A stretch of DNA of 64,000 bases from the NCBI RefSeq assembly GCF_025909975.1, contig NZ_JAPCIO010000001.1:248001-312000 (forward strand), written 5' to 3'. The translations under genes and the position numbers were made by a program. Each line of letters starts with the position of its first letter. Position 1 is the stretch's first letter. Below are positions 1,665 to 21,864 of this stretch, piece by piece. The notes under the pieces were generated by a model. The model was not told the origin of the DNA. It searched no databases and saw nothing but the letters and a program-made list of their open reading frames with translations. Source of the DNA: Flavobacterium lacisediminis. Lineage in GTDB: Bacteria; Bacteroidota; Bacteroidia; Flavobacteriales; Flavobacteriaceae.

Positions 1665-2690
1665 ATGATTAAGAACGATTTATTTTTAAGAGCATTAAAA
1701 GGAGAAACTGTTGAACGTCCACCAGTTTGGATGATGCGTCAAGCAGGAAGATATTTACCAGAATTTAGAGCTTTGCGCGATAAATATGATTTCTTCTCGC
1801 GTTGCGAAACTCCAGAATTAGCAGCTGAAATTACCGTGCAACCTATTCGTATTGTAAAACCAGATGCGGCTATTTTATTCTCAGATATTTTGGTAGTGCC
1901 AAGAGCTATGGGAATTCATGTGGAATTGAAAGACAATTTAGGTCCGATAATTCCAAATCCGATTCGTACTGCCGAACAAGTAAATCAGGTTTTTGTCCCA
2001 AATATTCACGAGACTTTAGGTTACGTGATGGATGCGGTAAAACTAACCAAAGAAATGTTGAACGACGAAGTACCGTTAATTGGTTTTGCGGGATCGCCTT
2101 GGACAATTTTCTGTTATGCTGTAGAAGGTAAAGGTTCTAAAAGTTTTGATACTGCTAAAGGATTTTGTTTTTCAAATCCGGTTGCAGCACACTTACTATT
2201 GCAAAAAATTACGGATACCACAATTTTATACTTAAAAGAAAAAGTAAAAGCAGGTTGTAATGCTATTCAGATTTTTGATTCTTGGGGAGGAATGCTTTCT
2301 CCAGTAGATTATCAAGAATTTTCGTGGCAATATATCAACCAAATTGTAGAAGCTTTAGCTGAAGAAACAGAAGTTATCGTATTTGGAAAAGGTTGTTGGT
2401 TTGCTTTAAACGAAATGTCTAAATCAAAAGCATCAGCTTTAGGAGTAGATTGGACTTGTTCGCCAAGAAACGCGCGTTATTTAACCGGTGGAAACATCAC
2501 TTTACAAGGAAATTTCGACCCAAGTCGACTACTTTCTCCAATCCCAACCATCAAAAAAATGGTACATCAAATGATTGACGAATTCGGAAAAGACAAATAC
2601 ATCGTCAACTTAGGTCACGGTATTTTACCAAATATTCCTGTTGATCATGCGAAGGCTTTTGTAGAAGCGGTGAAAGAGTATAAGAAGTAG
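1665..2690 (+). CDS. hemE: Uroporphyrinogen decarboxylase
   Basis: This 341-residue protein removes the four acetate carboxyls of uroporphyrinogen III to make coproporphyrinogen III. The N-terminal signature [18 protein letters not shown] spans residues 18-35 and holds the two substrate-binding arginines. D74 in LFSDIL corresponds to the catalytic aspartate of the family. The length is typical. The gene ends seven bases before an inserted membrane-protein gene; hemF, the expected next gene, is displaced by about 2.2 kb. Confidence 0.97.
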
Positions 2691-2697
2691 AATTTAA

Positions 2698-3216
2698 ATG
2701 AGAATCCCTTTAATTTATAAGAGAATTGGAAATTTTTTAGGTTCATTACTACTCTCATTATGTTGTTTTTTTGGTGCTTATCAAGCTCTTACATTAAGTA
2801 GCTACGATATAGATCAAATTAATAATTATAGTGGAAAAGTTATTGAAGCAGGAATAATGAATAAAAACAATTCCGTTGCCGGAAGAGGTTCGTTTAAATC
2901 TGATATTTTTTTTATAAAAATTCAAGGTCTAAATCAAATTTTAGCGACTTATAATTCTTCAAACAGCTATAGTTATTTTGAGGAAAACATTAAAGTTGGA
3001 GACGAGATAACGGTTTATTATTTAGAATCTAAAGACACAATAAAGCCAAATTTGAATTTGTTTCAAATTGAAAAGAATTATAAAATTATTTTGAATACAA
3101 AAGAATTTCAAAACAAAGAAATACTAGGTGGGTTAATAGGGTTTTTTGGAGGAATAATTTTATTAGGACTTGGTCTTTACCAAGATAAAAAGTATTGGGG
3201 AAAAAATGAAAAATAA
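2698..3216 (+). CDS. Two-helix membrane protein of unknown function (DUF3592-like)
   Basis: I do not recognise a specific function for this 172-residue protein. It has a membrane helix at about residues 10-30, an extracytoplasmic beta-rich middle of about 110 residues with GKVIEAG and VGDEITVYYLES, and a second helix near 145-165, an architecture seen in DUF3592-type proteins. The gene is visibly more AT-rich than hemE. Its last codons (Asn-Glu-Lys-stop) are encoded by a stretch identical to the start of hemF, so its 3' end looks fused to old hemF DNA. It is the first of three accessory genes that split hemE from hemF. Confidence 0.6.
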   Translation: MRIPLIYKRIGNFLGSLLLSLCCFFGAYQALTLSSYDIDQINNYSGKVIEAGIMNKNNSVAGRGSFKSDIFFIKIQGLNQILATYNSSNSYSYFEENIKVGDEITVYYLESKDTIKPNLNLFQIEKNYKIILNTKEFQNKEILGGLIGFFGGIILLGLGLYQDKKYWGKNEK

Positions 3217-3256
3217 ATTCTACACCTACATACAAACCTCCTAAGATCAAAACACT
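3206..3256 (+). pseudogene. Decayed duplicate of the hemF 5' end
   Basis: Bases 3207-3236 are identical to 4919-4948, the first codons of hemF, and weaker similarity with small indels continues to about 3256. The remnant keeps an ATG at 3206 and encodes MKNKFYTYIQ before drifting into Thr-Ser-stop. In intact hemF the matching position is TTG. The preceding gene ends inside this copy. The simplest reading is that DNA was inserted at the hemF start with duplication of that start, leaving this fragment behind. Confidence 0.8.
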
Positions 3257-3269
3257 TAGAAAATAACTA

Positions 3270-3806
3270 ATGATAACAACCGATTCATTTCATATAATCA
3301 CTTTACAATCAGATGACGCAAAAAGTTTATCTGAAATGATGGTTTTGAATTTTGATAACTTTAATCGTTATTTTCCAATTACATTATCTAAAAATCTATC
3401 CATAAAAGATAGTTTAAGTTATATTGAAGAAAAAAGAAAAGAAATCACTTTAAAATCTGAATTTACTTTTGGAATTAAAGATATTTCAAATTCAAAAATT
3501 GCTGGTTTAATTATCATCAAAGAAATAAATTGGGATACGAAACAAGGAGAATTTGCCTATTGTATTAGTTCAGAATACGAAAACAAAGGTTGGATGTCAA
3601 AAGCTATTGCTCGAGCCACAAAATACGGTTTTGAAGTTTTAGGATTCAATAAATTTCAAATTATTGCTCATAAAACAAATATTGGAAGTTGTAAAGTTGC
3701 AGAAAAGTGTGGTTTCACATGGAAAAGAACACTTTTAAATGAATACACACCTCCAAATGAAACTCCATTGGATATGGAATTATATGAATTAGAACATGAA
3801 AAATAA
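3270..3806 (+). CDS. GNAT-family N-acetyltransferase, RimJ/RimL-like
   Basis: The 178-residue protein has the full GNAT fold pattern: N-terminal strand with FHIITLQSDDAKSLSEMM, beta-4 with IAGLIIIKEINWD, the acetyl-CoA loop region EYENKGWMSKAIARATKYGFE near residues 107-127 and beta-6/alpha-4 with GSCKVAEKCGFTWK. This arrangement matches the ribosomal-protein or amino-acid acetyltransferase branch; the substrate cannot be read from the sequence. It sits in the insert between hemE and hemF, after the hemF remnant. Its final codons (His-Glu-Lys-stop) again coincide with a 14-base copy of the hemF start sequence. Confidence 0.85.
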   Translation: MITTDSFHIITLQSDDAKSLSEMMVLNFDNFNRYFPITLSKNLSIKDSLSYIEEKRKEITLKSEFTFGIKDISNSKIAGLIIIKEINWDTKQGEFAYCISSEYENKGWMSKAIARATKYGFEVLGFNKFQIIAHKTNIGSCKVAEKCGFTWKRTLLNEYTPPNETPLDMELYELEHEK

Positions 3807-3812
3807 ATTAAA

Positions 3813-4916
3813 ATGAGAGCAATTTTAACTGTATTTATTTTATTATTTTCAAACTTTATTAATGCGTGCCTTTGGGATAGAGACACTTATGCAATGGAAA
3901 AACAAAAGTTTCCAGATGCTTTTGAATTAATGACTGGGAATTTTGACAGGCACTCCAATTCATATTACCAATGGCGTATAGCTAAAATTCAAACTCAAAT
4001 TGATAAAGGAAATAAAGACCCTTTACTTTTTGATGATTTAGCAGTGGCGTATTCAAAATTAGGGAATGACAAAAAAGCTATTGAGCTTATGAAGCTTAAA
4101 GAAAAATTTGCTCCAAATTTATATGAAACATTCGCTAATCTTGGTACCTTTTATATCCATGATGGACAATTTGAAGAAGGATTAAAATATATTAATAAAG
4201 CTATCAAAATAAATCCTGAGGCTCACTTTGGAAGAGAAATATATCAAAAATACCTTGTTGAATTTATTCTGTTAAACAAAAAAAAGGAGTCTGAATCTAA
4301 TAACTTTTACATTTTTTTAATAGAAAAATACAATGCAAAAAATAATTCAAAGGAAAAATTTCTTCCAGAAGTAGAAAATGAAAAAGCTATAAAAGGAGTT
4401 TTAGGTATGATGCGATTTGGAAATTATAACTCCCCTATACTTTTAAATGCTCTTGGAGATTTGTTACTTGCGGATTCTTATAATACACCAAGCGCTAAAA
4501 GATTAGCAACTATGGCTTATATGGCTTCTGATTTATACAATGCCGGTTCAGTTTCTCTCAAAACCAAAGAAAATATTCAAATGTTTTTGAGCATGCAAGA
4601 ACGTGACAAAAACACCTATGAAGAATTGCTCAAAGAAGTTAAAAAAGGTATTCTAATTGGGAAAAGCAGATATGCTGAAATTGAAAAGAAAGAAACAAAT
4701 TGGGTTATTGAAAACAAAGATTTAGACATTGAGTTCGCACAAGATTTTTATGCAAAAACAGATTCTAAAAACAAGAACGATGTTGCTCCAAATAATCAAA
4801 ATAGAATTACTAAAAGCGAAGATAAAATATCTAAAAAACTAATCATTGGATTAATCATTACATTAGTTATTGTTGGAATTTTTGTAATTGTAAAACTTCG
4901 AAAAAAACATATTTAA
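3813..4916 (+). CDS. Exported TPR-repeat protein with C-terminal membrane anchor
   Basis: This 367-residue protein has an N-terminal export signal ending near FINAC, where Cys19 could be a lipid site although the lipobox is weak. A conserved-looking block CLWDRDTYAMEKQKFPDAFE follows. TPR helices lie at about residues 70-150 (DDLAVAYSKLGNDKKAIELM and FANLGTFYIHDGQFEEGLKY). A membrane helix with a basic tail closes the protein at 343-367. Function unknown; TPR units usually hold partner proteins, here probably in the periplasm. It is the last inserted gene before hemF, whose TTG start is one base after this stop. Confidence 0.7.
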   Translation: MRAILTVFILLFSNFINACLWDRDTYAMEKQKFPDAFELMTGNFDRHSNSYYQWRIAKIQTQIDKGNKDPLLFDDLAVAYSKLGNDKKAIELMKLKEKFAPNLYETFANLGTFYIHDGQFEEGLKYINKAIKINPEAHFGREIYQKYLVEFILLNKKKESESNNFYIFLIEKYNAKNNSKEKFLPEVENEKAIKGVLGMMRFGNYNSPILLNALGDLLLADSYNTPSAKRLATMAYMASDLYNAGSVSLKTKENIQMFLSMQERDKNTYEELLKEVKKGILIGKSRYAEIEKKETNWVIENKDLDIEFAQDFYAKTDSKNKNDVAPNNQNRITKSEDKISKKLIIGLIITLVIVGIFVIVKLRKKHI

Positions 4917-4917
4917 A

Positions 4918-5820
4918 TTGAAAAATAAATTCTACACCTACATACAAAACCTGCAAGATCAAATCTGTAAAGGATTAGAGGACATCGATGGCGGTACCAA
5001 ATTTCGCGAAGATATTTGGAAACGACCAGAAGGCGGTGGCGGTCGCACACGTGTTATTGAAAACGGAAATGTTTTTGAAAAAGGTGGTGTAAATATTTCA
5101 GCCGTTCATGGCAAATTACCCGATACGATGCAAAAAATGTTTGGTGTTGGAGAAGCCGATTTTTTCGCTTGCGGATTGAGTTTAGTTATTCATCCTAAAA
5201 ACCCAATGGTGCCAACCGTTCACGCGAATTGGCGTTATTTCGAAATGTACGACGATAACGGAAACGTAATCAACAGCTGGTTTGGTGGCGGACAAGATTT
5301 AACACCATATTATTTGTTTGAAGAAGATGCCAAACATTTTCATCAAACTTGTAAAAATGCTTGCGACAAACATAACCATGAATTTTATCCAAACTATAAA
5401 AAGAAATGCGATGAATACTTTTGGAACGCACATCGATTTGAAGCTCGTGGAATTGGCGGTTTATTTTTCGATTATTTAAAAGCAACCGAACAAATGTCGA
5501 TGGAAGATTGGTTCAATTTTGTGTCAGAAGTTGGGAATTCTTTCTTACAAGCATATGTTCCAATTGTGGAAAAAAGAAAAGATTTACCATATACAGATGC
5601 ACAACGCACATGGCAAGAAATTCGTCGTGGTCGTTATGTGGAATTCAATTTAGTTCATGATAAAGGAACCCTTTTCGGGCTAAAAACCAACGGAAGAATC
5701 GAAAGTATTTTGATGAGTCTACCACCACATGTGCAATGGGTATACGACCATCATCCAGAAGTAGGAAGTGAAGAAGAAAAATTACTGAAAATATTAGCAA
5801 AACCAGTTGACTGGGTTTAA
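4918..5820 (+). CDS. hemF: Oxygen-dependent coproporphyrinogen III oxidase
   Basis: The 300-residue enzyme uses O2 to decarboxylate two propionates of coproporphyrinogen III, giving protoporphyrinogen IX. Family signatures include EGGGGRTRVIENG near residue 40, HANWRYFEMYD near 102, WFGGGQDLTPYYLFEEDAKHF near 120 and QEIRRGRYVEFNLVHDKGT near 235. Translation appears to start at TTG 4918, because the duplicate copy at 3206 carries ATG at the same place and no other start lies close upstream in frame. The ATG to TTG change may lower expression. hemB follows after 32 bases. Confidence 0.95.
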   Translation: MKNKFYTYIQNLQDQICKGLEDIDGGTKFREDIWKRPEGGGGRTRVIENGNVFEKGGVNISAVHGKLPDTMQKMFGVGEADFFACGLSLVIHPKNPMVPTVHANWRYFEMYDDNGNVINSWFGGGQDLTPYYLFEEDAKHFHQTCKNACDKHNHEFYPNYKKKCDEYFWNAHRFEARGIGGLFFDYLKATEQMSMEDWFNFVSEVGNSFLQAYVPIVEKRKDLPYTDAQRTWQEIRRGRYVEFNLVHDKGTLFGLKTNGRIESILMSLPPHVQWVYDHHPEVGSEEEKLLKILAKPVDWV

Positions 5821-18198: not shown

Positions 18199-19800
18199 AT
18201 GGACTTTTTATATCAAGACCCGTATCCAATTTTAAAAGACGATACACAATACAAAAAATTAACTTCTGATTACGTAAAAGTTGAACAACTTGGCGATAGA
18301 GAAATCTTAGTGGTGGATCCAAAAGGATTAGAATTATTAGCACAAGAAGCAATGGACGACGTTTCATTTATGTTGCGTTCGGCACATTTACAAAAACTAA
18401 GAAACATTATCGAAGACCCAGAAGCAACAGACAACGATCGTTTTGTGGCTTATAACTTATTGCAAAATGCTGCTGTAGCTGTAGAAGGTCAATTGCCTTC
18501 TTGCCAAGATACTGGAACTGCAATTGTAGTTGCTAAAAAAGGTGAAAACGTCTACACTGGTGTAGAAGATGGCGAATGGTTGTCAAAAGGAATTTACAAT
18601 ACATACCAAAATAAAAATCTTCGTTACTCACAAATTGTTCCGATTTCAATGTTTGAAGAAAAAAACTCAGGTTCGAATCTTCCTGCTCAAATTGATATTT
18701 ATGCTAAAAAAGGAAATTCATATGAATTCTTATTTTTAACAAAAGGTGGTGGTTCGGCGAACAAAACGTTTTTATATCAAAAAACCAAATCGTTGTTGAA
18801 TGAAAAATCGTTAGACGAATTTGTTCGCGAGCGTATTATGGATTTAGGAACAGCGGCTTGTCCTCCGTATCACTTGGCTATCGTTATCGGTGGCACTTCT
18901 GCAGAAGCGAATTTAGCAGCCGTGAAAAAAGCATCAGCAGGCTATTATGACAATTTACCAACTTCTGGAAATATGTCGGGTCAAGCATTTCGCGATTTAG
19001 AGTGGGAAAAAAGAGTACAAATTATTTGTCAAGAAAGTCAAATTGGAGCACAATTTGGTGGAAAATATTTAACACATGATGTGCGTGTGATTCGTTTACC
19101 ACGTCATGCCGCATCTTGCCCTGTTGGAATGGGAGTTTCTTGTTCAGCAGATAGAAATATCAAAGGAAAAATCACGAAAGACGGAATTTTCTTAGAACAA
19201 TTAGAAACCAATCCAGGTCAGTTTTTACCAACATCAGCGCCTCATTTAGAACCAGCAGTAGAAGTTGATTTGAATAAACCAATGTCTGAAATTTTAGCAG
19301 AATTATCGAAATACCCAATTAAAACGCGTTTGAAATTAAACGGAACTTTAATTGTAGCTCGTGATATTGCGCATGCAAAAATCAAAGAATTATTAGACGC
19401 TGGAAAACCAATGCCAGAATATTTCAAAAACCACCCAGTGTATTACGCGGGTCCAGCAAAAACTCCAGACGGAATGCCATCAGGAAGTTTTGGACCAACC
19501 ACTGCAGGAAGAATGGATGTTTATGTAGACGAATTCCAAGCTGCTGGTGGAAGCATGATTATGTTAGCGAAAGGAAATCGTTCGAAACAAGTAATGGATG
19601 CGTGTAAAAAATATGGTGGATTCTATTTAGGTTCGATTGGTGGTCCTGCTGCTATTTTAGCGAAAGAAAATATCTTAGCTGTTGAAGTAGTGGATTTTGA
19701 AGAATTAGGCATGGAAGCCGTTCGTAAAATTACCGTAAAAGATTTCCCGGCATTTATTATTACGGATGATAAAGGGAATGATTTTTTTATGAATCTTTAG
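18199..19800 (+). CDS. Fumarate hydratase, class I (iron-sulfur)
   Basis: This 533-residue enzyme interconverts fumarate and malate in the TCA cycle using a [4Fe-4S] cluster. The probable cluster ligands are C102 ([10 protein letters not shown]), C221 (TAACPPYH) and C315 (GVSCSADR), whose 119- and 94-residue spacing matches the known class I enzyme of Leishmania as I recall it. N- and C-terminal domains are fused in one chain, as in FumA/FumB. Oxygen sensitivity is expected from the class. A terminator follows at 19837. Confidence 0.95.
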
Positions 19801-19836: not shown

Positions 19837-19873
19837 AAACCTGTGAGTTGAAAGACTTGCGGGTTTTTTATTT
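19837..19873 (+). terminator. Terminator after fumarase (copy 1 of a duplicated terminator)
   Basis: A stem ACCTGTGAGT/ACTTGCGGGT with G-U pairs is followed by a T6 run. The 37-base unit is repeated at 20362-20398 with only two differences. Its T-run overlaps the stop codon of the convergent gene downstream. Confidence 0.75.
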
Positions 19874-20305
19874 AAAATAAGATTCTAATAACGTTATTGA
19901 TTTTTTGACTTTACTATCAAATGTGAATTTTAGAATTAAGATAAAAACAATCAAAAATGGAAAAAACAACAACACTTGTTTCTCTTGAATTTTAGTATAA
20001 ATAAACAAAATAAAAAGAGGTTCGACTAATATTATAAACCACAATACTTTTTTCATTATCGAACTTAAATCAAACACTAAGTCGACTTGATTACTATGAA
20101 TTTTTCCTGAGATTTCTGGGCGAAATTGATTTCTTGGTCCGTAATCAAATGTGGGCTTAATATTAATTTCTCCGCTTAAATTTACATTTCCTTCAAAATC
20201 GAATTTAGAATTGTCACGATGAAAATTTTCAACCTTAGCTTGAAGAATTGCAATGATTTCTTCATTTGAAAGTTTTGATTTTATGGTGTGTAATTTTTTG
20301 AACAT
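19868..20305 (-). CDS. Small protein with two membrane helices, unknown function
   Basis: The 145-residue protein starts at the ATG at 20305; an upstream TTG (20326) lies in a repeat and is less likely. The soluble N-terminal part of about 80 residues contains LSNEEIIAILQAKVENFHRD. Two adjacent membrane helices follow at about residues 82-125, and a short charged tail with DSKVKKSITLLESYF closes it. I do not recognise the family. The gene is bracketed by two nearly identical terminator copies, which suggests it was inserted downstream of fumarase. Confidence 0.55.
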   Translation of the reverse strand: MFKKLHTIKSKLSNEEIIAILQAKVENFHRDNSKFDFEGNVNLSGEINIKPTFDYGPRNQFRPEISGKIHSNQVDLVFDLSSIMKKVLWFIILVEPLFILFIYTKIQEKQVLLFFPFLIVFILILKFTFDSKVKKSITLLESYFK

Positions 20306-20318
20306 GATTTTAAAATTT

Positions 20319-20357
20319 AAACGCAAAGGCGCAAAGTTTTTCGCAAAGCACGCAAAA
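20319..20357. repeat. Short intergenic array of GCAAAG units
   Basis: The hexamer GCAAAG (mostly CGCAAAG) recurs at irregular short spacing in this 39-base stretch, with a final degenerate unit GCAAAA. From memory, similar GCAAAG-rich intergenic runs are common in Flavobacterium genomes. It separates the inserted small gene from the second terminator copy. Confidence 0.45.
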
Positions 20358-20361
20358 TAGG

Positions 20362-20398
20362 AAACCTGTGAGTAGAAAGACTTGCAGGTTTTTTATTT
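20362..20398. terminator. Second copy of the duplicated terminator
   Basis: This hairpin plus T-run is 35/37 identical to 19837-19873. As in copy 1, the T-run covers the stop codon of the next minus-strand gene (20393). It now faces the start of the 145-residue gene. Confidence 0.7.
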
Positions 20399-20635
20399 GA
20401 TAATTAAAGAATTAGTCATAATTAAGGTCTGATTTAAACCCTCATCAGTTAAATTACCAGTCACCAAAATTTCTTCCTTTTCTAATAATTGTACTTCATC
20501 TGATTTGTTATCAAAAAGCACAATAATTTTCCTTTTTATTCCTGTATATTCTATTTCTGCTGATAAATAATAATGTCCACCATAAGCTCCATTAGATAAA
20601 ACATTATATTCTGAAAATTTATGTTGAAAAATCAT
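20393..20635 (-). CDS. Small protein of unknown function downstream of rlmI
   Basis: An 80-residue protein reads from the ATG at 20635. It begins MIFQHKFSEYNVLSNGAYGG, is beta-strand-rich throughout, and ends EEILVTGNLTDEGLNQTLIM, a pattern like a small OB-fold, although I do not recognise a family. A longer frame runs upstream into rlmI but only as antisense-frame sequence; the ATG 11 bases after the rlmI stop is the sensible start and suggests co-transcription with rlmI. No signal peptide is seen. Confidence 0.5.
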   Translation of the reverse strand: MIFQHKFSEYNVLSNGAYGGHYYLSAEIEYTGIKRKIIVLFDNKSDEVQLLEKEEILVTGNLTDEGLNQTLIMTNSLIIK

Positions 20636-20646
20636 TTTACAATACT

Positions 20647-21813
20647 TTATTCGACAAACAACACCAATCCTTTCAAATAATGACCTTCTGGATGGTAAAT
20701 ATTCGTTGGGTGATCGGGTCCTTGCTCTAATTTGTGTAAAACCCTGATGTTTCTTCCGGTTTCTATGGCTGCTGCTGCAACTGTGTTGTAAAATAAAACA
20801 TCGTCTATGACTTGTGAGCAAGAGAACGTGAATAGAATTCCGTTGGGTGCTAAGGCTTTAAATCCTGCAATGTTTAAACGTTTGTAGGCTTGCGTTGCGG
20901 TGTGTTTACTTTTGATGCTTTTCGCGAAAGCGGGTGGATCTAATACGATGACATCATATTGTTGTGTGTGCTCTTTCATGAAGTTGAACACATCGTCAGC
21001 AACTGCTTTATGATTAGCATTTGGAAAATTCAATTCCATATTACTGGCTGCTAAATCTACCGCTTTTTGAGAAATATCTACCGAGGTAACTAATTCTGCT
21101 CCTGCGCTCATCGCGTAAATTGAAAATCCTCCAGTGTAGCAAAAGGTGTTTAGCACTTTTTTGCCTTTTGAGAATTCACCTAATAATTTACGGTTTTCGC
21201 GTTGGTCTAAGAAGAAACCAGTTTTTTGTCCTTCAACCCAATTTACTGAAAACAAAATGTTGTTCTCTTTGGCAACCGCTTCTGCTTTATTTCCGAATAA
21301 GAAATAATCAGTTCCAGTATTCGGTAAAGTTCCTGAGCTTTTGCAATAAATGGTTTCGCAATAGTCTGGAAAATTAGATTTTATGGCTTCAGAAATTTGC
21401 TCCATTTGAAGAAAAACACCTGTCGAATGCGCTTGAATCACCCAATTTTTATCGTAATAATCAATAATTAATCCCGAAATGCCATCGCCTTCTCCGTGAA
21501 TCACTCGGAACGCATTGGTAACTTCAAAATCTAATAACTGAGTGCGCAAATACCAAGCCGATTGTAGTTTGGCTGCCCAAAAGTTTTCAGAAAAAGTCTC
21601 TTCGCCGAAAGTCAAAATACGAACTACAATACTTCCTTTATCACTGAAATATCCGGTTCCTAAATGATTGTTTTTCGAATCGACTACATCTACCATTTCG
21701 CCATCGTTTATTTCACGACTTACGCCATAAACCGCACCACTGAAAATCCAAGGGTGACGACGTTGAATAGATTTTTCTTTACCTGATTTTAGAATTACTT
21801 TTGGTAAGCTCAT
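20647..21813 (-). CDS. rlmI: 23S rRNA cytosine-C5 methyltransferase, RlmI type
   Basis: The 388-residue protein has an N-terminal PUA-type RNA-binding domain (about 1-80, RRHPWIFSGAVYGV) and a class I SAM-dependent methyltransferase domain. Visible motifs are the SAM loop LNTFCYTGGFSIYAMSAGA, the catalytic block VLDPPAFAKS and the cysteine segment FTFSCSQVID, where the Cys is the likely nucleophile. RlmI methylates C1962 of 23S rRNA in E. coli; the same target here is inferred. Confidence 0.9.
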   Translation of the reverse strand: MSLPKVILKSGKEKSIQRRHPWIFSGAVYGVSREINDGEMVDVVDSKNNHLGTGYFSDKGSIVVRILTFGEETFSENFWAAKLQSAWYLRTQLLDFEVTNAFRVIHGEGDGISGLIIDYYDKNWVIQAHSTGVFLQMEQISEAIKSNFPDYCETIYCKSSGTLPNTGTDYFLFGNKAEAVAKENNILFSVNWVEGQKTGFFLDQRENRKLLGEFSKGKKVLNTFCYTGGFSIYAMSAGAELVTSVDISQKAVDLAASNMELNFPNANHKAVADDVFNFMKEHTQQYDVIVLDPPAFAKSIKSKHTATQAYKRLNIAGFKALAPNGILFTFSCSQVIDDVLFYNTVAAAAIETGRNIRVLHKLEQGPDHPTNIYHPEGHYLKGLVLFVE

Positions 21814-21822
21814 TTTCTTTAA

Positions 21823-21864
21823 AATATATAAAAACCTGACAGGTTAGAGTAACCTATCAGGTTT
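21823..21864 (-). terminator. Terminator of the ricT-gldH-pbp1A-scoAB run
   Basis: AAACCTGA and TCAGGTTT frame an inner AGGTT/AACCT stem. On the minus strand the hairpin is followed by a T-rich tail. It lies 20 bases after the scoB stop. Confidence 0.8.

Follow-up and report, generated by a model that had tools for sequence, protein, structure and literature searches.

Very short copies of housekeeping-gene starts and ends seem to mark the addition of single genes at several loci of a Flavobacterium genome

Background

The entry of single genes into bacterial chromosomes without integrases or transposons has so far mostly been inferred indirectly. In the 64-kb stretch of Flavobacterium DNA analysed here (the window), two nearly identical hairpin terminators lie on either side of a small membrane-protein gene between two core genes, fum for a class I fumarase and a gene for an rlmI-like methyltransferase, and the question that this arrangement raises is where the second terminator came from and which gene, if any, arrived with it. 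A preliminary description of the sequence had proposed that the small gene was inserted into the fumarase terminator with duplication of the latter, and had pointed to a second repeat at hemF as a parallel.

Gene-cassette integrons are a familiar route by which single small genes are added in one orientation next to a fixed border. A different route, homology-facilitated illegitimate recombination, has been studied in conjugation and transformation experiments (PMC3240628), with work on Acinetobacter, Streptococcus pneumoniae and Pseudomonas stutzeri cited in PMC2884548, in which illegitimate recombination assisted by homology is proposed for dimorphic loci. A process akin to it has also been proposed for the stepwise build-up of orphan immunity-gene arrays of the type VI secretion system (T6SS) in Vibrio cholerae (PMC5361080). 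Here, we describe the fum-rlmI gap, the related structure between hemE and hemF and two further loci of the same genome (G000; 2.86 Mb, 36 contigs), and compare them with the corresponding loci of other genomes.

Results

A duplicated fumarase terminator

The fumarase gene (18199..19800, plus strand; PF05681/PF05683, E 5.5e-75 / 9e-83), whose 3' end and terminator are duplicated, is followed by its working terminator (copy 1; 19837..19873, plus strand), a stem of 12-13 bp with a T-run. The minus-strand gene small145 (19868..20305), a membrane-protein gene in the first cargo slot, is succeeded by an array of GCAAAG units (about 20319..20357, plus strand), the orphan terminator copy 2 (20362..20398, plus strand), the 80-aa orf80 in the second cargo slot (20393..20635, minus strand) and the rlmI-like gene (20647..21813, minus strand; PF10672, PF17785), the core gene that bounds the slot on the right. 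The two terminators agree in 35 of 37 bases at a spacing of 525, and each T-run overlaps the TAA stop codon of a convergent minus-strand ORF (19868-19870 and 20393-20395), much as had been described, except that the ORF ending within copy 2 is orf80 and not rlmI. The GCAAAG array previously noted behind the small gene is likewise real; it is a dispersed repeat with three genome copies at up to three mismatches in 30 nt (the others at C34:82883 and C23:16685), and it is near-identical at the same place in G188. No Pfam, NCBIfam or PADLOC family matched small145 at its cut-off, and a search of the window against Rfam at gathering thresholds was negative.

A direct-repeat scan of the window (60-5000 nt apart, score at least 22, low complexity removed) returned only two pairs, namely the fum terminators and the hemF pair at 3203/4915, as against none in each of three first-order Markov shuffles of the window, so that the terminator repeat is not due to chance. 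When up to three mismatches are allowed, the genome contains two copies of the 28-nt terminator core (searched with two open positions), and we therefore rejected a high-copy (REP-like) intergenic repeat, the outcome that the preliminary description had named as damaging to its case. The predicted minimum free energy on the plus strand is -15.3 kcal/mol in each copy (z -5.1 and -5.0), compared with -5.1 and -10.8 on the minus strand, where the hairpins are weaker because G-U pairs turn into A-C mismatches; both copies are therefore fumarase-sense terminators, and copy 2 has no plus-strand gene ahead of it. It could be supposed that they are unrelated look-alikes, or belong to a terminator repeat scattered over the genome, and are retained to insulate convergent genes from each other, and another hairpin type does recur in the genome (C1:127044/130990). 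Such an explanation is nevertheless highly improbable, given only two genome copies, of which the second has a fumarase-sense orientation with nothing to terminate, and it is contradicted by the fumarase codons that precede the hairpin in relatives (see below).

The fum-rlmI gap is a variable slot

An exact motif scan over the contigs of one genome per species (84,980 species) found the terminator motif in four contigs, each time directly 3' of fumarase (F. sasangense, F. tibetense, Flavobacterium sp. LMO8 and the MAG UBA7663). Among 299 genomes drawn from the genus, ten carry the motif, all ten directly after fumarase, and three have it twice (G000, G188 and G253); G253 appears to be F. tibetense, and G311 appears to be F. 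sasangense.

The content of the gap varies within Flavobacterium, where it acts as a slot for small minus-strand genes of different kinds, most of which end at the fumarase terminator. The gap contains small145 alone in G348, a membrane-protein ORF of 130-132 aa in G032 and G240, a 237-aa lipoprotein-like ORF in G164 (partly visible also in UBA7663, whose available sequence ends there), small145 with a 150-aa ORF in G012 and G311, and small145 with the 132-aa ORF in G067 and G023. The order of small145, array and second terminator seen in the window recurs in G188, with a 111-aa ORF unrelated to orf80 behind it. In LMO8 the gap has one terminator and no ORF of at least 45 aa, and a single terminator is what had been predicted for a strain without the small gene. 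Past the fum terminator, this otherwise empty slot also holds an inverted repeat resembling a dispersed intergenic repeat.

Copies of small145 with at least 60% identity occur in six relatives, one with two terminators and five with one (G012, G311, G067, G348 and G023, the last with an internal stop), so small145 is old at fum and is not the duplicating insertion. What the duplicated terminator accompanies is a second cargo ORF, orf80 in the window and the unrelated 111-aa ORF in G188. Gene gain at the terminator, as originally suggested, thus stands; the part of the suggestion that assigned the duplication to small145 does not. A more distant homologue (33%) also lies between fum and rlmI in G322, and those in G004, G069 and G185 have no fum within the available surrounding sequence. 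We set aside the notion that the T-run acts as supplier of cargo stop codons at fum, as in G004 (L035) a distant homologue of small145, found away from fum, likewise terminates in a T-run. By eye, G067 and G023 show a candidate decayed terminator, which we do not claim, in the interval from small145 to the ORF that follows.

Fumarase-tail fossils in relatives

In G115 and G134 the first terminator is followed by a 371-aa ORF, identified as a DUF4143 ATPase by a profile search of the G115 copy, and then by a fumarase tail with stop codon, UTR and second hairpin. The tail comprises the last 16 fumarase codons in G115, 20 in G134 and 31 in G253, where the fossil measures about 170 nt including UTR and hairpin and lies ahead of an orf80 that is 91% identical to that of the window and in the same place. 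G253 also has a stretch resembling the pre-tail sequence of G134 but lacks the ATPase; it looks as if a DUF4143/AAA ATPase gene had been deleted between fumarase and the fossil tail in F. tibetense. A 39-aa fumarase-tail query matched in 256 of 398 genomes, with a second match in five (G115, G134, G253, G056 and G069); the two matches in G069 are on different contigs. For terminator copy 2 of the window, the reading we prefer is a fossil fumarase 3' end that marks the joint between two slots with different cargo. In a plasmid BLAST search (77 records), all matches listed (20 places) lay within the fumarase part or a few bases past its stop.

The several unrelated cargo ORFs that end singly, and in the same orientation, right behind the hairpin T-run might suggest a site-specific, integron-like addition of cassettes with the terminator hairpin as recombination site. 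As in integrons, single small genes stand in one orientation at a fixed border, but the cargo proteins searched (part of the gap ORFs) include no integrase, there is no constant recombination site and the joints fall in coding sequence. The fossils of G115, G134 and G253 reach 48-93 nt into the fumarase codons, i.e., the joints are outside the hairpin, which contradicts this explanation, and the repeats at hemF and at the nucleotidyltransferase-like gene described below are coding; we give it very little credence.

Typing of the 3'UTR separates two kinds, and fossil and intact copies differ in kind in two of the three typable genomes. The fossil UTR of G115 matches that of G188 at 79% and its own intact copy at 67%; in G253, the fossil matches G134 at 92% and the intact copy matches G188 at 90%. 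Fossil and intact UTR of G134 look alike by eye, the alignment of the fossil being poor. The fossil in the window itself, the terminator with no more than a few bases of UTR, offers too little sequence for lineage typing.

These observations bear on the simplest account of the repeats, in which one gene enters at a staggered break, or by way of an element, and 35-65 nt of the target are copied in the process. The four repeats counted in G000 (see below) do fall within 37-54 nt, as such a long target-site duplication would have it. Against it stand the different lineages of the two copies in G115, in G253 and at frr, the single terminator beside small145 in five of six relatives and the repeat lengths, which run across genomes from about 37 nt to about 170 nt instead of the constant length expected from a transposon; among the cargo proteins of the window there was no family match to a transposase. 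We consider target duplication unlikely. The preliminary description had taken the duplicated length to be 30-50 bases, which does not hold in the relatives, and simple duplication of the target did not predict copies of different lineages in G115 and G253, a difference that later recombination could also cause.

The hemE-hemF island

The repeat at hemF is a scar of the same type as that at fum. Between hemE (1665..2690, plus strand; PF01208, E 1.8e-128), the left core border, and hemF (4918..5820, plus strand; PF01218, E 2e-137), the right one, the window carries the plus-strand cargo genes X172 (2698..3216), a GNAT acetyltransferase gene (3270..3806; PF13302, E 1.3e-18) and a TPR-protein gene (3813..4916; PF00515, E 5.2e-8), GNAT and TPR being the domains recognised in the window's cargo; the TPR protein also weakly matched PADLOC candidate models (1.3e-6). 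A plus-strand fossil of the hemF 5' end (3203..3251; 49 nt at 88%, the first 34 nt at 97%) encodes the last codons and stop of X172 (NEK*), read in another frame than that of the ATG which the fossil includes. A second trace of the hemF start, 14 nt long, occupies 3796..3809 (plus strand) at the end of the GNAT gene, and in G115 the same GNAT end passes straight into the real hemF.

Among 16 relatives, two have GNAT-TPR-hemF (G012 and G067), two have TPR-hemF, one has a 59% homologue of X172 adjoining hemF (G222) and one, G115, has a different ORF, a fossil and then GNAT-hemF; the junction is empty in five (16-67 nt) and in the remaining five there is a longer gap with no match to the island genes of the window. 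The hemE-hemF region of the window thus looks like a joined form of two islands that occur separately in relatives, brought together around the 49-nt fossil, and the parallel drawn in the preliminary description is borne out. The start codon of hemF is TTG (4918-4920) in the window and in G012, G164, G032 and G067, all with the TPR gene upstream, and ATG in the other 12 of the 16 relatives; cargo capture may have caused the change from ATG to TTG.

Two further scars in the genome

The search for further repeat-flanked genes, advised at the outset, covered two 382-kb samples in addition to the window, or 828 kb in all (about 29% of the genome), and it proved productive. The first sample gave 32 pairs at a score of at least 24, of which 29 were inspected and sorted by eye; pairs that looked like tRNA arrays, tandem paralogues or a CCCGAT-type hairpin were excluded, and two fossils of core-gene ends were found, at the frr terminator and at the end of a nucleotidyltransferase-like gene. 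In the second sample (39 pairs, sorted by eye), nearly all pairs were within repeat proteins or paralogues, with no clear further fossil and one doubtful case. About 29% of the genome accordingly contains four scars (fum, hemF, frr and nucleotidyltransferase), two of them within one 64-kb stretch.

At frr, a 50-nt terminator repeat (88%) flanks a 150-aa lipoprotein ORF. This cargo is present in two of 16 relatives (G115 and G023); six have the same kind of terminator once, without cargo, and eight show no cargo match and another arrangement or terminator. The outer (fossil) terminator with its UTR is identical at 69 of 69 positions to the native junction of the near relative G012, and the inner copy is of the type found in the cargo-bearing G115 and G023. 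Within frr, 10 of 201 nt differ from G012 beside the insert and 2 of 360 farther off (Fisher p 0.0009, with the split chosen post hoc); farther to the right, the differences from G012 rise to as many as 22 per 100 nt, so that the tract is not sharply bounded and the region is mosaic. Incoming DNA anchored in frr would produce this pattern, and an older insertion moved by two-sided recombination fits as well.

At the second locus, the last 54 nt of the nucleotidyltransferase-like gene are repeated (98%) around a 217-aa lipoprotein ORF with a weak match to PADLOC candidate models (1.8e-4). None of the 16 relatives has this cargo, and in all 16 both neighbours lie within about 115 nt. Close copies exist in two of 398 genomes, the window's own and G261, with a partial match of 38% in G371; in G261, the fossil beside the cargo provides the cargo's own stop codon. 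Over 54 nt, the two copies in G000 differ from G012 at 0 and 2 positions, and no donor tract is visible. With copies nearly identical to each other, both near the native sequence, and cargo missing from all 16 relatives, this locus speaks for a long target duplication, which fits it equally well.

Some of the comparisons would also suit an old multi-gene island whose duplications arose once, long ago, in tandem, and which two-sided homologous recombination and gene loss have been reshuffling since. The junction of small145, array and fossil is common to the window and G188, the right junction of the frr cargo is identical in G000 and G023 and similar in G115, and the similarity of fum and rlmI is uneven near the slot, with F. 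tibetense and the window differing by 10-26 per 100 nt in the first 1100 nt of fum and by 8-14 in the last 500. Reshuffling would leave unexplained, however, why unrelated ORFs each end at the same core-gene border, and also the rarity of the 217-aa cargo, and we judge it improbable, somewhat more so than target duplication.

Discussion

A proposed one-sided homology model

The best explanation, which we hold to be slightly more probable than not, is homologous recombination within a core gene on one side and an illegitimate joint on the other, producing a chimeric gene slot. Incoming chromosomal DNA of another strain would pair with the recipient by homology in fum, and its far end, past the cargo gene, would be joined without homology just inside the 3' end of the recipient's fumarase gene. 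The intact fum would then have the incoming end, and the recipient's old tail, UTR and terminator would be left as a fossil that separates the new cargo (small145) from the old (orf80). The same process is proposed for the structures at hemE-hemF, frr and the nucleotidyltransferase-like gene. Survival of a fossil would be favoured if it is short and if a neighbouring cargo gene takes its stop codon from it, since recombination between a long fossil and the intact copy can loop out the cargo; we infer that long fossils are lost in this way and that short ones are kept where they serve a cargo gene.

Two marks of such events can be looked for. The first, a junction in a shared core gene, is seen in that the insert comes after an intact fum, frr or nucleotidyltransferase-like gene, or follows hemE. 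The second, an unrelated joint together with a partial copy of a core-gene end, is present at all four loci and in G115, G134, G253 and G261. The two copies belong to different lineages in G115, in G253 and at frr; those of G134 look alike by eye, and those of the nucleotidyltransferase locus are both close to the native sequence. One-sided homology is favoured by the empty slot of LMO8, the tail fossils with their mixed UTR lineages, the separate occurrence of the hemE-hemF parts, the frr copies of different type together with the contrast in differences (10/201 vs 2/360) beside and away from the insert, and the different ORFs behind the same series of small145, array and fossil in the window and G188, as well as by the absence of the nucleotidyltransferase cargo from the 16 relatives and the stop codon supplied by the fossil in G261. 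The like UTRs of G134, the near-native nucleotidyltransferase copies without a donor tract, the mosaic surroundings of the frr tract and the lack of a clear further case in the second 382-kb sample count against it. Natural competence has been reported for Riemerella, of the same family, and that F. johnsoniae was not competent in the same test (PMC7965970) is a further point against. The second parent, with fum, terminator, orf80 and rlmI in succession, was not found in any of the genomes, and F. tibetense has orf80 only behind the fossil.

Once present, a fossil would offer homology through which ordinary recombination could exchange the cargo behind it. A possible, and decidedly tentative, extension is that fossil core-gene ends act as re-usable landing pads, where the cargo behind can be swapped and new cargo added on the core-gene side, giving rise across Flavobacterium to ordered arrays of several slots at housekeeping genes with cargo stop codons taken from the fossil.

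Relation to known systems and significance

The closest published account, as far as its available text goes, is that of the T6SS immunity-gene arrays of V. cholerae (PMC5361080). Both systems show stepwise addition of cargo at a conserved anchor, with homology on one side and an illegitimate joint on the other, both keep displaced ends, and in both the number of steps varies among genomes. In V. cholerae, a toxin-secretion locus serves as anchor, and entire immunity genes or the 3' ends of effectors are kept (PMC5361080), whereas in Flavobacterium the anchors are housekeeping genes and the pieces kept are 14 to about 170 nt of a core-gene start or end. The dimorphic loci (PMC2884548, in the part available) are similar in that two different segments occupy one site between conserved flanks and one-sided homology is proposed; that work concerns replaced segments, to which Flavobacterium adds fossil copies of the flanking gene as markers. 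The molecular route proposed here is the same as in the recombination experiments (PMC3240628), which are experimental where our case for Flavobacterium is drawn from sequence. In a limited literature search, we came across no description of such core-gene fossils for fum, hemF or frr of Flavobacterium.

The present analysis seems to add that events of this kind can be recognised, at several loci of one genome, by very short fossils of the starts or ends of housekeeping genes. As physical scars, the fossils can be scanned for, typed to strains and ordered in time, and they may help to trace how genes are added one at a time in bacteria. Four scars in about 29% of a small genome suggest that the route may be frequent at housekeeping genes, beyond toxin loci, and a core-gene start or end that has been kept can become part of a cargo gene by providing its last codons and stop.

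Other repeats

Several further repeats of the genome were left uncounted. In the second sample, a 35-nt direct repeat (91%) surrounds a histidine kinase/response regulator pair (C1:395176/398454), a 50-nt repeat has its copies 90 nt apart (C1:339430), and a noncoding tandem unit of roughly 200 nt starts from the stop of a 632-aa ORF (C1:476297-477005); none of the three could be tied to the end of a core gene with cargo in between. The window also has a palindromic element at 21833-21863 (AACCTGACAGGTT followed by AACCTATCAGGTT), which separates rlmI from a gene that is CoA-transferase-like by its look.
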